A stretch of DNA of 64,000 nt from Planococcus versutus (GTDB taxonomy: Bacteria > Bacillota > Bacilli > Bacillales_A > Planococcaceae): the NCBI RefSeq assembly GCF_001186155.3, contig NZ_CP016540.2, positions 3,140,001 through 3,204,000 of the forward strand, written 5' to 3'. Below are positions 10,237-40,435 of the stretch, in pieces. How positions within the stretch are numbered: the stretch's first letter is position 1; every line of letters starts with the position of its first letter. The translations under genes were made by a program, and so were the position numbers. The notes beneath the pieces are model-generated. The model was not told the origin of the DNA. It searched no databases and saw only the letters and a program-made list of their open reading frames with translations.

Positions 10237-11073
10237 TTATTCTTTTCCACCATATAATTGCTTTAGCTCTTCTTCTTTCATCGTAAAACGATGTTCTTCT
10301 GCAGGAAATGCGCCTGATTTCACTTCATTTACATACGCCATCAAGCCGTTTTTCATACTTTCTCCTGTTTCAGCGTAGGAGCGAACAAATTTCGGCAAAT
10401 GGTGGGAGCCATATTTAAGCGTATCGTGGTATACCAACACTTGGCCGTCTGTTTCGCTGCCCGCTCCAATGCCAATAACAGGTATTGTGAGCGCCGCAGT
10501 TACTTTTTCAGCTAGTTGATAAGGAATGCATTCAAGCACAAGCATACATGCGCCTGCTGCTTCACAAGCGAGAGCATCGTCGATTAGTTTTTGTGCCGCA
10601 TCTGCGGTTTTCCCTTGCACTTTATAGCCACCGAGAACACCTGCCGATTGAGGCAACAATCCGAGATGCGCGACAACTGGAATGCCGGTATGAGTTAGTA
10701 ATTTGATGGCATCTAAAACACTATCTGCGCCTTCCACTTTGACTGCTTCCGCTCCAGTTTCTTGAAAAATCTGGACGGCGTTATCGAGTATGCGCTGTTC
10801 ACTTCCGTGAAACGAAGCAAACGGCATATCTATAACTAAAAAGGTATCGGGTGCTCCGCGTCGAGCCGCTTTTCCGTGATGAATCATGTCGTTAATTGTG
10901 ACTTTAACTGTCGAATCGTACCCAAGAACCACCATTCCTAGAGAATCTCCAACTAAAATAACATCCACTCCAGCTTCCTCAGCAAGCTTGGCTGACGGAT
11001 AATCATAAGCTGTAAGCATGGCGATTTTTTCATTTTGTGTTTTCATTTTGATAAGTGAAGCTGTATTCTTCAT
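10237..11073 (-). CDS. panB: 3-methyl-2-oxobutanoate hydroxymethyltransferase (ketopantoate hydroxymethyltransferase)
   Basis: A 278-residue PanB that transfers a hydroxymethyl group from 5,10-methylene-THF to ketoisovalerate, the first step of pantothenate synthesis. Family signatures are complete: [38 protein letters not shown] with metal-binding Asp, [24 protein letters not shown] and the VIGIGAG loop. The frame is open far upstream to 11301, but AAAGGAGAG is 7 nt before ATG 11073 and the extra region is the structured leader. panC and panD are not adjacent; the gene appears monocistronic. Confidence 0.96.
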
Positions 11074-11099
11074 TTTTCTCTCTCCTTTTGGGAGGGAAA

Positions 11100-11275
11100 C
11101 CAAAAATAAAGCCCATCTCTCCAACTTTGGACAGACGGGCAGGAAGTTTATCGTAGGTTTTCTCCGTCCCTGTCGATTTAAGATCAAGGCAGAACTATGC
11201 AGTTGTTGAGTATTTTTATAGGTGCAGTTCAGCAATGATACTGCCCTTAATGTCACTATAGCAGAAGTATGTGTG
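11100..11275 (-). promoter_or_regulatory. Structured panB leader with terminator/antiterminator; possible pan-type element
   Basis: On the minus strand the leader forms a strong hairpin (11111-11140; GCCCGTCTGTCC pairs with GGAGAGATGGGC, one mismatch) followed by TTTATTTTT, an intrinsic terminator 38 nt before panB. An upstream segment at 11164-11174 (GACAGGGACGG) can pair with CCGTCTGTC at 11130-11138, which would break the terminator. Farther upstream, GGCAGT and ACTGC elements can form another stem-loop, and AAGGGCAG can pair with CTGCCTT. The pan RNA motif is reported upstream of panB in Firmicutes; identity with it is plausible but unverified. Confidence 0.6.
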
Positions 11276-11314
11276 TTGGAACATGGTTTGTGTTTACTCA
11301 TAGAGAGCTTGAAG

Positions 11315-34131: not shown

Positions 34132-35124
34132 TCAGACTTCAGATAAAGGCGATGCCGCTGGTTTCCCAAAATAATAACCTTGGAATAATTGATAGCCAAG
34201 CTGTTTTAACCACTCAAAATCCTGATAGGTTTCAATGCCTTCTGCTAACGGAATAGAACCGATTTCTAAAGCCTTTTCCAAAAATCTCCTCGCTATCTTT
34301 TGCTTTTCTATGTCTTTAGCGACATTAAAAACATATTGCATGTCGAGCTTCATGTACTTTGGTTTTAAGTCCGCTAAAAGTTCAATTGTGCTATATCCTT
34401 CACCGACGTCATCTAATGCATAATCGAATCCTCGATCTCTATAGTAACGGAGGATTTTCTTTAAATGATTAAGGTCGTCTACTTTTTCCGTTTCCACAAC
34501 TTCAAATACTAACGACTTTGGATTGACGCCTAATCGCTCTGACAACTCAATTGTCGAACGCAAGCAAAATTCGGGTGAGTATATAGACGTCGGAATAAAG
34601 TTAATAAACGCTTTTTTCCCCTTTAATGCAGCTGCGTATTTTACAGCAGTCATGCGGCAAACACGGTCTAATGCGTATAAACGGCCGCGTGTTTTTGCTG
34701 CAGGAAACACCTCATTGGGATAAATCATCGAACCTTCTTTACTGTGAAAACGTGCAAGCATTTCATAAGCATAAACCGTTTCACTACTATCGACGATTGG
34801 TTGATAATGGCAAACGAGCTGTTCGTTTTTGATGACTTCATCAATCCACTCTGTCGCAAAAACGTCAGTCATTTTTTCTACCGGTTGCCACGCTTCTTGA
34901 TTGATGCGATAAACGACATTTTCCTTTTCCAACAAATCAGTGCAAAAATCCAGAAATTCTCTAGCACCTTGTTCATCTAACTGTAGTTTGTTGTCTTTTT
35001 GCACGACTTTTATTTTTTGTCTTTCCAAATGATCTATGACAAGTTGCAACGCCGAAAGATTTTTCTGTCCTTCTAGCTTAATTTCAAAATTGATGGCTGT
35101 AACTGCACAGCTATTGCATGGCAT
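34132..35124 (-). CDS. EAL-domain protein (c-di-GMP phosphodiesterase-like)
   Basis: A 330-residue protein. An N-terminal region of about 95 residues (starting MPCNSC) precedes an EAL domain from about 100. The signature EAL reads EML in YEMLARF; other catalytic positions appear present: N in FINFIPTS, E in FEVVETE, DD in YALDDVGEGYS (usually DDFGTGYS), K in KLD and E in AEGIET, plus QGYYFGKP. It may therefore hydrolyse c-di-GMP, though loop 6 is unusual and a sensor role is possible. AGGAGG precedes the ATG. No GGDEF domain is present here. Confidence 0.85.
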   Translation of the reverse strand: MPCNSCAVTAINFEIKLEGQKNLSALQLVIDHLERQKIKVVQKDNKLQLDEQGAREFLDFCTDLLEKENVVYRINQEAWQPVEKMTDVFATEWIDEVIKNEQLVCHYQPIVDSSETVYAYEMLARFHSKEGSMIYPNEVFPAAKTRGRLYALDRVCRMTAVKYAAALKGKKAFINFIPTSIYSPEFCLRSTIELSERLGVNPKSLVFEVVETEKVDDLNHLKKILRYYRDRGFDYALDDVGEGYSTIELLADLKPKYMKLDMQYVFNVAKDIEKQKIARRFLEKALEIGSIPLAEGIETYQDFEWLKQLGYQLFQGYYFGKPAASPLSEV

Positions 35125-36019: not shown

Positions 36020-39000
36020 GTGAAGAAAACATTATTATACTTGTCTGGAATTATTCTATTACTAGCACTTCCTATCTTATTTTGGTTTTTAAAAGGAGAG
36101 AAAATAGTTAATATAACAATCATTGATAAGACAGTTCCGACTGAAAACTATCGAGAGCACAAAGGGTTAACGTGGCTATTGAATCATCAACGTTATGTGT
36201 CAAAAGCTGGAGAAATGTATAAGACTGATACGGACTATTATGGCTTTTTTCCAAATGAAAAAGAAAAAGACTATAGCATTCGTGAACTTCCTGAAGATTT
36301 TTCTGGAACCGACCTTATTTACCTTGCAGATACATACGGAGTTTTTGAAGAAGACCTTTCTTGGAACACTAAAGAAAAAAATTCTGGCGGTTCGTCTATG
36401 ATTTCAGGTGGACTTCAGATGATTGAATGGCAAAAAATTAAACAGCAAGTTCAGTCTCAAGGCACAGACTTGGTTATGGAGTTTAATACGTTTGCTTCTC
36501 CAACACCGAAAGATGTTTCTGAAGATATGAATGAATTCCTAGGATTGGAATGGAGCGGTTGGAGCGGACGTCATTTTCCAGAACTCCAAACTACTGATAG
36601 CGAAGTTCCTCAATGGATTATTACCAATTATGAGAAAAGTGATAGAAAATGGGATTTTGAAGGTGCTGGATTTGTCCTTGTTCATGACGAGACCAGTGAA
36701 ATTATTGTTCTTTCTGAAAAAGCAGCTGAAGTTGGGACAGATGGATTACATCTTGAGTTTACTGAAAAAGGGACGGAACAGTTTGATTTAAAAAATAGTC
36801 CGGCTTTTGGTTATTGGTTTGATATTAATATAGCTTCTCCTGATACCGAGGTTTTGGCTGATTATAAATGGGATGTTAAAAAATCTGGTAGTGACAAGTT
36901 AGAGGCAGCGGGAATCCCACTCAACTTCCCAGCTGTCTTCCACCAATCAAAGTACGGCGCAGATATTTATTATTTTGCAGGAGATTTTGTCGATATGGAC
37001 GATGTTCCGCGCTTTACTCGTTATGCAGGATTTTCGAAAATCCGTTCTTTTCTTTCTTCTGAACTAGTAGATGCCGAAAAAAGCTTTTATTGGAAGACTT
37101 ATATCCCAATGATGGAAGCTATTTTAGCAACTACAGAGAAAAAAAGAACTTTGGCTGAAACAACGAAAAAAGCTGAGGTTGTAGAAGAGGGCATTTCTTA
37201 TCCTTCTCGTATTAACGGAGATGCATTTGAAGTTTATGAAGATGGAAAATGGCAATCATTTACGATCAAAGGCGTTAATATGGGAATGGCCAAGCCCGGT
37301 ACATTCCCAGGAGAAGCCGCAATTTCACGTGATGAATACGATCGTTGGTTTAAGGAAATCGGTGAAATGAACGTCAACGCGCTTCGTGTGTATACTCTTC
37401 ATCCACCTGCTTTTTATGAAGCATTTGCTGATTATAATGCTAGCGCTGATAAACCACTATATTTATACCATGGCGTTTGGATTGATGAAGAGCCTTTAGT
37501 AGAATCTTTAGATGCATTCGATCCGGAAATTACTGAGCGTTTCCAGAAAGAAGTTAAAAAAGTTGTAGACGTTGTTCATGGTGATGCTGTTGTAAAAAAA
37601 GAACCTGGACATGCTTATGGTAAGTACAAAGCGGATATTTCTCCTTATGTTATCGGATGGATAATCGGTATTGAATGGTTCCCAATCATGGTCGATCAAA
37701 TGAATATAGATTATCCAGACCTTGGTGATTATCAGGGCCAATATGTATACTCAGAAAATGCCAATCCGATGGAAAATTGGGTAGCGCAGCAAATGGACCA
37801 TCTTGCATCTTACGAACTAGACACGTATCAAAGTATGCGTCCGTTAAGCTTTACAAACTGGGTGACCACTGACAACATAGATCAGCAAGCAGAACCAAGT
37901 GATCAAGAAGACTTGGCAACTGTCGATCCAAATCATATCAAAACGAAAGGTATAACAGATACAGTCGGCATGTTTGCTTCTTATCATGTCTATCCGTATT
38001 ATCCTGACTTCTTGAATTTAGAAGAGCGCTATGTTGAATATGTAGATCATCGTGGTGAATTTAATAACTACGCAGGCTATTTGAAGGATTTAAAAAATTC
38101 TCACGACATGCCAATTGTCATCGCCGAGTTTGGCATTCCTGCTTCGCGTGGCATGACTCATGAAAACCCGTTTGGTTGGAATCAAGGTTTTATCTCTGAA
38201 CAACAGCAAGGAGAAATCGTTAGCCATATGTACGAAGATATATTGGAAGAAGGCATGCTTGGCGGCATGGTTTTTACTTGGCAAGATGAATGGTTTAAAC
38301 GAACTTGGAACACTATGGATTATGATAATCCGAACGAACGACCGTTTTGGTCTAATGCGCAAACGAACGAGCAACAATTTGGGTTGTTAAGCTTTGATCG
38401 TCATAAAGTCAAAGTCGATGGCATCGACGATTGGGAAGAAGAACAAACTCTCTACGAAAAAGAAGATGGTGCACTTCGCACATTGACGATGGATTCAGAC
38501 GAGCGTTATGTTTATATTAAAGCACAATTCGAACCCACCTATAAAAACTGGTGGACTGAACAAGACTTCAATCTTTACTTTAGTCTTCGAAATAACGATG
38601 GTATTGCCGTTAATGCTTTAAAGAATACCGAATTTCTTGCAGACTATCAGTTGAAAATTGAAAACCTAGAACAAGCTCAATTACGAGTTGCAGGTGATTA
38701 CGACACTTTCTACTACGATTACCATAAACGTTTAGAAATGATTCCTGCTGAAAAAAATATCGAATCGACTTTTCATCCCATTCGATTAGCGTTGAACAAA
38801 GAATTCGTGCGCCCAGACACCGGAGAAAAGCTTCCGTTTTCTTCATACGAAACAGGCATTTTCCAATTTGGGATTGCCAATCCGGAGCATCAAGACTACA
38901 ATTCGTTAAATGATTATTATTACGATCCGCAAACGGGAATTATGGAGATTCGGATTCCTTGGATGCTGTTGAATGCAAAAGATCCTACTAAACGAGAATT

Positions 39001-39220
39001 TATGGGCAACCTTCAAAAAGATGGACTTGAATCTACAATTACAATTGAAGGACTAGATTTTGCAGCTAGTTTAACTAGCAAAAACGGAAAAATCGTCGAA
39101 GCTTTTGATACATCTCAAGTAGCCCATTATTCTTGGGATACCTGGGGATTACCTAAATCCGAAGAACGTTTGAAACAATCCTATTACATTCTTCAAAAAA
39201 CGTTTGAAGAAACCGAATAA
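36020..39220 (+). CDS. Large membrane-anchored glycoside-hydrolase-like protein
   Basis: A 1066-residue protein. One N-terminal membrane segment (about 4-24) anchors a long extracytoplasmic part. Residues about 30-370 form a region I cannot assign. Residues about 395-790 look like a clan-A TIM-barrel (GH2-like) domain: FTIKGVNMGMAKPGTFPGEA, YDRWFKEIGEMNVNALRVYTLHPPAFY, then IGWIIGIEWFPI with E552 and MPIVIAEFGIPASRG with E703, spaced as acid/base and nucleophile. The C-terminal 250 residues may be beta-rich. Start is GTG behind GGAAAGAG. It ends in a strong terminator and appears monocistronic. The substrate, perhaps a surface polysaccharide, is an inference. Confidence 0.72.
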   Translation: MKKTLLYLSGIILLLALPILFWFLKGEKIVNITIIDKTVPTENYREHKGLTWLLNHQRYVSKAGEMYKTDTDYYGFFPNEKEKDYSIRELPEDFSGTDLIYLADTYGVFEEDLSWNTKEKNSGGSSMISGGLQMIEWQKIKQQVQSQGTDLVMEFNTFASPTPKDVSEDMNEFLGLEWSGWSGRHFPELQTTDSEVPQWIITNYEKSDRKWDFEGAGFVLVHDETSEIIVLSEKAAEVGTDGLHLEFTEKGTEQFDLKNSPAFGYWFDINIASPDTEVLADYKWDVKKSGSDKLEAAGIPLNFPAVFHQSKYGADIYYFAGDFVDMDDVPRFTRYAGFSKIRSFLSSELVDAEKSFYWKTYIPMMEAILATTEKKRTLAETTKKAEVVEEGISYPSRINGDAFEVYEDGKWQSFTIKGVNMGMAKPGTFPGEAAISRDEYDRWFKEIGEMNVNALRVYTLHPPAFYEAFADYNASADKPLYLYHGVWIDEEPLVESLDAFDPEITERFQKEVKKVVDVVHGDAVVKKEPGHAYGKYKADISPYVIGWIIGIEWFPIMVDQMNIDYPDLGDYQGQYVYSENANPMENWVAQQMDHLASYELDTYQSMRPLSFTNWVTTDNIDQQAEPSDQEDLATVDPNHIKTKGITDTVGMFASYHVYPYYPDFLNLEERYVEYVDHRGEFNNYAGYLKDLKNSHDMPIVIAEFGIPASRGMTHENPFGWNQGFISEQQQGEIVSHMYEDILEEGMLGGMVFTWQDEWFKRTWNTMDYDNPNERPFWSNAQTNEQQFGLLSFDRHKVKVDGIDDWEEEQTLYEKEDGALRTLTMDSDERYVYIKAQFEPTYKNWWTEQDFNLYFSLRNNDGIAVNALKNTEFLADYQLKIENLEQAQLRVAGDYDTFYYDYHKRLEMIPAEKNIESTFHPIRLALNKEFVRPDTGEKLPFSSYETGIFQFGIANPEHQDYNSLNDYYYDPQTGIMEIRIPWMLLNAKDPTKREFMGNLQKDGLESTITIEGLDFAASLTSKNGKIVEAFDTSQVAHYSWDTWGLPKSEERLKQSYYILQKTFEETE

Positions 39221-39236: not shown

Positions 39237-39283
39237 AAAAACCTGACAGTGAAAAGTGAAATACTTTTCACTGTCAGGTTTTT
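39237..39283. terminator. Bidirectional terminator
   Basis: A 21-bp perfect stem (39237-39257 with 39263-39283) with a GAAAT loop, A- and T-runs at its ends, between convergent genes 36020-39220 and 39304-40173. Confidence 0.93.
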
Positions 39284-39303: not shown

Positions 39304-40173
39304 TTATGGTTTCATTGTTTTCCAGCTGTCTACATGATGAACTGCGATGCCGCCAAATCCTTGTATTCCCGAATAATAAGCAGCTACTGTCGCTAATTCA
39401 TTTTCCATGTAAGTTTCGCCTTCTTCATAAAACGAAATATTGTCGCCTTCGTCTGTTTGATCTGTTTCAATACCGACCACTACCACTTTTCCATATTTCT
39501 CTGCATACGCTACTTCGTTTTTCACCAGTTCTGTAATCATAGCTGCTGAATCTCGGTAAGCCATCAACGTCACACTTGCTGTATTCGCAATAACCCATTC
39601 TGCGAGCACGCCTTTGCCATAGGTGTTTTTATAGAGAATTTCATCAAACCAAAAAGGCATATCCACTTCTAATAGCAAACTTAATGCCGCTGTACTCGCC
39701 TTTGCTTTGTGTAACAGCGATTGATAGGATTTTACCGTTGCTGCATGGTTTGTATTCCAACCGCTATAAAGATACGGTTCCACATCCAGATGAACTCCAG
39801 TGAATTTTTGAGACGGTGTTGCTTGTTGTTGATACGTGGTTAACCAATTCATAAGTCGGTCTTGTTTCACAAACCCTTTTGGCGCTACCCAATCACTTGC
39901 CCCATCTAGCGCATAAATGGTCATGCCTGCCGCTCCTGCTTTTTCAATAAAATCGCTATAGACATTGACTGGAATATCCTCATCGATTTGCACATAAACT
40001 TTGTTCACATTTTTACTTTGTAAAAAAGCGAGTGTTCCCGCTTCGTCACTGTTAATCATCCACGGATTCCATAACCACGTGCCTCGAGTATCCTTTTCAA
40101 CCGCTTGCACACCAAAACTATTTTGTGTCAGCATAAACACCAACCACACACCTGCTATCATTATTTTTTTCAC
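39304..40173 (-). CDS. Secreted protein, TIM-barrel/glycosidase-like, under c-di-GMP riboswitch
   Basis: A 289-residue protein with a cleavable signal peptide (MKKIMIAGVWLVFMLTQNSFGVQA, cut near 24). The mature part starts RGTWLWNPWMI and has barrel-like alternation, with LDVEPYLYSGW, LEVDMPFWFDEIL, VTLMAYRDSA and VVVVGIETDQTDEG, a pattern seen in glycosidase-like or poorly named 'amidase' proteins; the acidic residues could be catalytic. Function not established. Start is probably GTG 40173; an ATG at 40161 is possible. A c-di-GMP-I riboswitch lies in the leader, implying a role in sessile-motile lifestyle or surface polymers (inference). Confidence 0.72.
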   Translation of the reverse strand: MKKIMIAGVWLVFMLTQNSFGVQAVEKDTRGTWLWNPWMINSDEAGTLAFLQSKNVNKVYVQIDEDIPVNVYSDFIEKAGAAGMTIYALDGASDWVAPKGFVKQDRLMNWLTTYQQQATPSQKFTGVHLDVEPYLYSGWNTNHAATVKSYQSLLHKAKASTAALSLLLEVDMPFWFDEILYKNTYGKGVLAEWVIANTASVTLMAYRDSAAMITELVKNEVAYAEKYGKVVVVGIETDQTDEGDNISFYEEGETYMENELATVAAYYSGIQGFGGIAVHHVDSWKTMKP

Positions 40174-40213
40174 CTTCTCATATCCTCTCGCTCTAAAAGC
40201 CCTAGTTCAAGAA

Positions 40214-40305
40214 ATGAGACTCGGCAACCTGACAACCTTGCGCTTTTCAACGGGTAGGCTCATGACTTTGCGTCCTCCCCTTTCGGTGAAGTTTGCCTTT
40301 TTAGA
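40214..40305 (-). ncRNA. c-di-GMP-I (GEMM) riboswitch
   Basis: The minus strand reads GGCAAAC, then a GAAA-tetraloop stem, GGACGCAAAG, a second stem-loop, and CAGGTTGCCGAG. These are the conserved core elements of the c-di-GMP-I aptamer in the correct order. Downstream, TCTCAT can pair with ATGAGA beside the AAGGTG/GTG translation start, so the expression platform probably controls translation. A TATAAT sequence lies about 10 nt upstream of the aptamer. Confidence 0.9.
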
Positions 40306-40435
40306 TTTTTCTTATTATATGTTAATTTATGCATTTCTACCATCTTTTTTAAATAACCCTTTCAATATGTTGCATTTAAGGCAATAATCAACGTTAGGGT
40401 TTCCCTATATCATTTATTAAAAGGAGTGACCTATC

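Follow-up and report, generated by a model that had tools for sequence, protein, structure and literature searches.

A c-di-GMP-I riboswitch upstream of a conserved family of secreted barrel proteins in Planococcus versutus, with a predicted OFF action on translation

INTRODUCTION

A stretch of 64,000 nucleotides from Planococcus versutus (contig NZ_CP016540.2, positions 3,140,001 to 3,204,000; hereafter the window) carries on its minus strand a gene for a 289-residue protein, preceded by a leader in which an initial annotation had proposed a class I riboswitch for cyclic di-GMP (c-di-GMP-I). Three questions are raised by this locus: whether the leader contains such an aptamer, whether its pairing with the gene is confined to this genome, and in which direction c-di-GMP would control the protein. 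Here, we report that the pairing of aptamer and gene is conserved across many genera of Bacillota, into Clostridia, and that the leaders share two competing hairpins, for which an OFF action on translation is predicted. The recurrence of the same switch-gene pair in many Bacillota suggests that a messenger of biofilm life directly controls an enzyme predicted to cut surface sugars.

RESULTS

The leader contains a full-length c-di-GMP-I aptamer

Searching the whole window against Rfam with cmscan gave a match to the c-di-GMP-I family (RF01051) that scored 69.6 bits (E 1.4e-11), the curated cut-off being 35, over model positions 1–87 of 87; a search of a short stretch gave the match again. The initial annotation had named this family as the check on its claim, and the search bore the claim out; the interval that it gave, 40174–40305, spanned the aptamer, less two bases, and the rest of the leader as far as the start codon. 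All model pairs in the alignment were standard, with zero flagged, and a scan of the 3.33-Mb genome returned this as the sole c-di-GMP-I match. The aligned sequence contained the GG of AAGGCAAA, the first A of GACGCAAAG and the CC of UUGCC, which we take to be letters of the ligand pocket. At the position described as steering the choice between c-di-GMP and cyclic GMP-AMP (c-GAMP) (PMC9262584), the window aptamer reads G. Judged by sequence, the identity of this RNA as a c-di-GMP-I aptamer is near certain, and ligand binding is predicted. Directly ahead of the aptamer lies a TATAAT, which is treated as a putative promoter only, because a consensus promoter scan listed nothing on the minus strand at 40314–40319.

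The pairing of aptamer and gene is conserved

When species genomes were scanned with the 289-residue protein, 59 loci were obtained, from Planococcus to Thermobrachium. An aptamer was found directly upstream in 53 of them, 52 by motif scan and one more, L078, by a covariance model; L043, L047, L072, L082, L088 and L090 had none. L043 and L047 are Planococcus copies, and P. chinensis has both L057 with the aptamer and L047 without. Because the covariance model was partly built from the window, 11 loci were put to Rfam. Ten gave matches of the c-di-GMP-I clan in place, eight to RF01051 and two (L078 and L084) to RF03167, the c-di-GMP-I-GGC variant, which was also the best family for L079. The consensus of RF03167 has GACGCGAA; L078, L079 and L084 read GACGCAAA, as in RF01051. 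L072 (Lysinibacillus parviboronicapiens, upstream of 6001) gave no Rfam match: its leader retains the platform and, of the aptamer, only the 3' portion, and is, by its sequence, a riboswitch in decay.

Within the bacterial family, the protein occurred in 92 of 261 genomes, its own counted, and the aptamer in 61 of the 90 loci that were read from 100 places listed, the window's own included; genomes overlap between this sample and the 59 loci. In a phylum sample the protein was found in 14 of 398 genomes, its own included, and the aptamer in 5 of 23 loci, two of them from another class, where the 23 count fragments and second copies and one locus already in the family sample. Since family genomes with an aptamer had only one to five matches each, among the matches listed, chance placement ahead of one given gene would be far below 1/100. 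In a tree of 70 protein rows, 7 changes accounted for the aptamer label, versus 12.2 when shuffled, with 0 of 500 shuffles as low; long branches leave the deep order of this tree unsure, and near-copies favour a low count. Other RNA families were sought upstream of the aptamer-less relatives, at 20 of the 29 such loci in the family sample, and one sub-threshold microRNA match, deemed chance, was obtained. The recurrence of the riboswitch with its gene in many genera does not support a reading of the locus as an isolated case.

Two mutually exclusive hairpins follow the aptamer

Between aptamer and start codon, the leader can form a hairpin that buries the Shine-Dalgarno (SD) sequence, in which UCUCAUUUCUUG pairs with CGAGAG and AUGAGA. 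The TCTCAT/ATGAGA pairing, which the initial annotation had offered as the expression platform, does exist as complementarity (40219–40214 with 40181–40176), and constitutes only the outer half of this longer hairpin; its letters were peculiar to the window genome among the leaders compared. In a second, anti-sequester hairpin, the stretch directly 3' of the aptamer pairs with the loop strand of the first. Because letters are shared between them, the two hairpins are mutually exclusive.

As the alignment of leaders displaced the anti-sequester strand between clades, swap tests were used instead of column counts, on 34 non-redundant leaders (the window and 33 relatives). The arms of the burying hairpin folded at -12.46 kcal/mol with their own partners and at -9.07 kcal/mol when swapped (0/2000), and those of the anti-sequester hairpin at -7.31 versus -6.07 kcal/mol (0/2000); a control stretch was unsupported (926/2000). 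The permutations disregard shared descent, and therefore the anti-sequester test on 20 distant leaders, 2/2000, is the fairer figure. When the final CC of the aptamer was folded with the stretch up to the loop, both C were paired in 26 of the 34 leaders, one in 3 and none in 5, compared with a both-paired rate of 27% in shuffled controls. In minimum-energy folds of the post-aptamer stretch, every one of 54 leaders had SD letters in pairs, and in 48 of them at least three of these letters were paired. The Thermobrachium leader (L086) has the same two hairpin options in other letters. In the window, the platform letters have diverged from those of the nearest relatives, and the burying hairpin is rebuilt with different letters. 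A terminator scan listed no terminator inside the leader. It is likely that control acts at translation, which agrees with the prediction in the initial annotation.

The encoded protein is a barrel of no named family

The GTG start of the gene aligned with the starts of relatives. The protein had 303 homologues at E ≤ 0.001, and the gene had one match in its own genome. Its predicted structure was a triosephosphate isomerase (TIM) barrel, with a predicted local distance difference test (pLDDT) score of 93.0, whose closest folds among the structural matches listed were Cwp19, PgaB and GH18 enzymes. Pfam and NCBIfam gave no match, and 29 family members searched against Pfam at E up to 10 hit scattered chance families only. 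The description of a barrel protein with a signal-peptide-like N-terminus and no named family, made in the initial annotation, thus stood. Its proposal of a c-di-GMP effector holds in that the protein is a riboswitch target; nothing points to the protein itself binding c-di-GMP.

The GH18 motif is DxxDxDxE, which the family does not have: in its consensus, GVHLDVEPY, D130 and E132, the last D and E of the motif, are invariant and H128 replaces one D. The label of amidase given by sources was unsupported, with no amidase family profile found in Pfam or NCBIfam. The only solved chain found to be alike by sequence was PDB 10yv (E 1.5e-16; profile 4.3e-21). We consider it quite probable that the protein is a glycoside hydrolase. 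A matrix polymer is its putative substrate, at a confidence slightly short of even, and exopolysaccharide degradation is proposed because the gene neighbours, as the sole basis, hint at it.

A polysaccharide locus accompanies the gene in many relatives

A protein of a GT2 glycosyltransferase cluster is encoded downstream on the same strand in 20 of the 59 loci, 19 of them in Planococcus/Planomicrobium and one in Niallia (L054). It was preceded by a HEAT-cluster protein in 19 of the 20, and in 12 a GGDEF/response-regulator-cluster protein came first, between the barrel gene and GT2. At L061 the domains were Hpt, GGDEF and receiver, then HEAT, then GT2 with a chitin-synthase match, and a domain check confirmed the GGDEF domain of the L054 neighbour. 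At the window locus and L033, which have no HEAT-GT2 pair, a 1066-residue protein gene directly abuts the barrel gene; it adjoins the riboswitch gene in 9 further Planococcus/Planomicrobium loci, and its product had no match in Pfam or NCBIfam and none in PDB by sequence. A GGDEF/HEAT/GT2/receiver set is present elsewhere in the genome (C1, ~1.897–1.901 Mb). The genome has 15 GGDEF matches, two of which are halves of one split match (G000:C1:1912483–1912946, minus strand), with a TGA inside one piece, perhaps a broken gene. Another gene related to c-di-GMP, for a 330-residue EAL protein (PF00563) and possible c-di-GMP phosphodiesterase, lies at 34132–35124 on the minus strand, ~4 kb from the riboswitch gene. 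The features of the locus are collected in Table 1.

Table 1. Features of the riboswitch locus in window coordinates
Feature	Position	Strand	Basis
c-di-GMP-I riboswitch aptamer	40220..40307	-	RF01051, 69.6 bits, cut-off 35
Proposed sequester hairpin burying the SD, outer helix UCUCAU/AUGAGA	40176..40219	-	-12.7 kcal/mol; swap test; counterparts in relatives
Proposed anti-sequester hairpin, takes in the last CC of the aptamer (40224–40223)	40201..40224	-	swap test; fold of -4.8 kcal/mol for the window
SD sequence GAGAGG	40184..40189	-	aligned with SD of relatives; mostly paired in predicted fold
289-residue secreted TIM-barrel protein, GTG start	39304..40173	-	open reading frame; homologues; model; signal peptide by eye
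TATAAT, -10-like box directly ahead of the aptamer	40314..40319	-	by reading the sequence; like TATAAT in many Planococcus relatives
Terminator-like inverted repeat between convergent genes, both directions	39237..39283		20 base pairs, followed on each strand by a T run
1066-residue convergent neighbour, glycosidase-like by eye only	36020..39220	+	cluster c7

Other RNA elements

Behind the other c-di-GMP-I matches, the first long open reading frames (ORFs) of 31 loci were read. At L006, L024 and L026 the aptamer stands ~480–490 nt ahead of an ORF resembling flagellar FlgC. A c-di-GMP-I RNA therefore probably governs a flagellar operon in these relatives, like flgB in C. difficile. In many family genomes (L003–L005, L007–L009, L011–L015, L017–L023, L025, L028 and L029), an ORF of ~236–251 residues, belonging to a single recurrent family, lies ~470–590 nt beyond the aptamer. 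Within the window, a pan motif RNA (RF01749, 60 bits against a cut-off of 36.2) was found at 11160–11247 on the minus strand, at an ORF (10237–11301, minus strand) that is PanB-like by eye.

DISCUSSION

Proposed mechanism and its direction

Because the hairpin that frees the SD consumes the edge of the ligand pocket, the SD would be expected to be buried when the aptamer is bound. Transcription would start close to the aptamer. With c-di-GMP bound, the aptamer would keep its 3' edge, a CC that stands, by position, where known aptamers have the C that pairs with the ligand, and the anti-sequester hairpin would be blocked; the downstream hairpin would then bury the SD and turn translation off. 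At low c-di-GMP, the 3' edge would, during transcription, capture the loop strand of that hairpin by pairing, leaving the SD free. The secreted barrel protein would then be made. It may cut a glycan of the surface or the matrix, probably the polymer produced by the GT2 synthase encoded beside it in many Planococcus, which could help cells to exit or remodel the biofilm. Its likely role, by prediction, is that of a glycoside hydrolase of the matrix whose production is repressed when c-di-GMP is high. The account as a whole, an OFF riboswitch on a secreted matrix-glycan hydrolase, has in our estimate an even chance of being right.

Several observations weigh against this account. Mean equilibrium accessibility of the SD over 54 leaders was 0.26 with the aptamer edge free and 0.26 with it held; holding the edge lowered accessibility by more than 0.1 in 6 of the 54 and raised it in 3. 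Because accessibility at equilibrium is the same either way, the OFF direction needs folding during transcription, and because equilibrium folding gives no direction, we lowered our confidence in a translational OFF switch to somewhat better than even. The P1 helix of the window aptamer is weak, at ~0 kcal/mol, and showed no covariation over the 34 leaders (688/2000). The energy of the window's burying hairpin is ordinary (z -0.94, with 35 of 200 shuffles no less stable), and for this reason the argument relies on comparison between leaders. In the family sample, 29 of the 90 loci have no aptamer, and the HEAT-GT2 pair is missing beside the window gene. A c-di-GMP-I ON switch has been described, Bc2 of B. 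thuringiensis (PMC11218506).

Bc2 is a precedent for the opposite sign, in which c-di-GMP would switch translation on and the protein would trim or release polymer during synthesis. We regard this as unlikely, though worth weighing: the SD-freeing hairpin uses the 3' edge of the aptamer itself, which a bound aptamer should hold, and OFF action is described in C. difficile for the class I switches tested, one gene being nonetheless raised overall via its promoter (PMC6200980). An action on peptidoglycan, in cell-wall turnover or the spore cortex, instead of exopolysaccharide is a similarly doubtful alternative. Less probable still is a switch decayed or weak in this genome, with an aptamer that is kept but responds poorly, leaving the gene near-constitutive or always low; the weak P1, diverged platform, unexceptional hairpin, loss of the aptamer at L043, L047 and L072, and Bc1 of B. 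thuringiensis, which binds c-di-GMP and hardly alters expression (PMC11218506), would fit it, but the match is full-length with standard pairs, the burying hairpin has been rebuilt from other letters, and the Cd1 riboswitch is described as functional in the absence of P1 (PMC9262584).

Returning to the OFF reading, it can be extended to a c-di-GMP 'release' module conserved in Bacillota, in which the riboswitch would repress translation of a member of a new glycoside hydrolase family, this enzyme would degrade the exopolysaccharide of a GGDEF/HEAT/GT2 system, and the messenger would favour synthesis via proteins and block degradation via RNA. This extension is speculative and, taken whole, rather improbable. 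Through its coupling to c-di-GMP, a protein family that had no function can be assigned, strongly and in a testable way, to biofilm or surface life; the coupling also draws attention to a polysaccharide locus linked to c-di-GMP, in which GGDEF, HEAT and GT2 genes occur. Related leaders that build the same two hairpins from different letters make OFF versus ON logic testable.

Comparison with known systems

The RNA class is already known. In the open-access library searched, outside which most subscription papers lie, no paper among the matches listed described the target family, and none joined c-di-GMP, riboswitch and Planococcus. The window aptamer is like the RF01051 class in sequence and structure. 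Vc2 acts as an OFF switch on translation. In Cd1, a transcriptional OFF switch, the alternative fold pairs the ligand-binding C87, taking the edge of the ligand pocket as in the window platform (PMC9262584). The window RNA has a different target gene and a weak P1, and its direction and ligand binding are predicted. The zmpI and flgB leaders of C. difficile are class I c-di-GMP riboswitches whose genes fall as c-di-GMP rises (PMC6200980); their targets are a metalloprotease and flagella, whereas the target here is a barrel protein.

On the protein side, Cwp19, the C-terminal domain of PgaB and GH18 enzymes share 8 to 16% identity with the window protein in structural alignments. PDB 10yv, deposited as 'Putative GH97 from Cellulomonas fimi' with the depositors' own label 'putative', is a chain of 275 residues similar by sequence and, judging by its name, from another phylum. 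A counterpart in role is PelAH (BCE_5582) of Bacillus cereus. This hydrolase is small and secreted, is encoded next to a polysaccharide locus that depends on c-di-GMP, and when it is lost biofilm increases (PMC7112168). The two small, secreted proteins are likened by role and locus, not by sequence, and the GT2 locus of the relatives is not identified as pel. The PelAH paper makes no mention of a riboswitch, whereas the window gene has one. By this analogy, a secreted hydrolase of the matrix, akin to PelAH but predicted to be controlled by RNA, is the best-fitting model.
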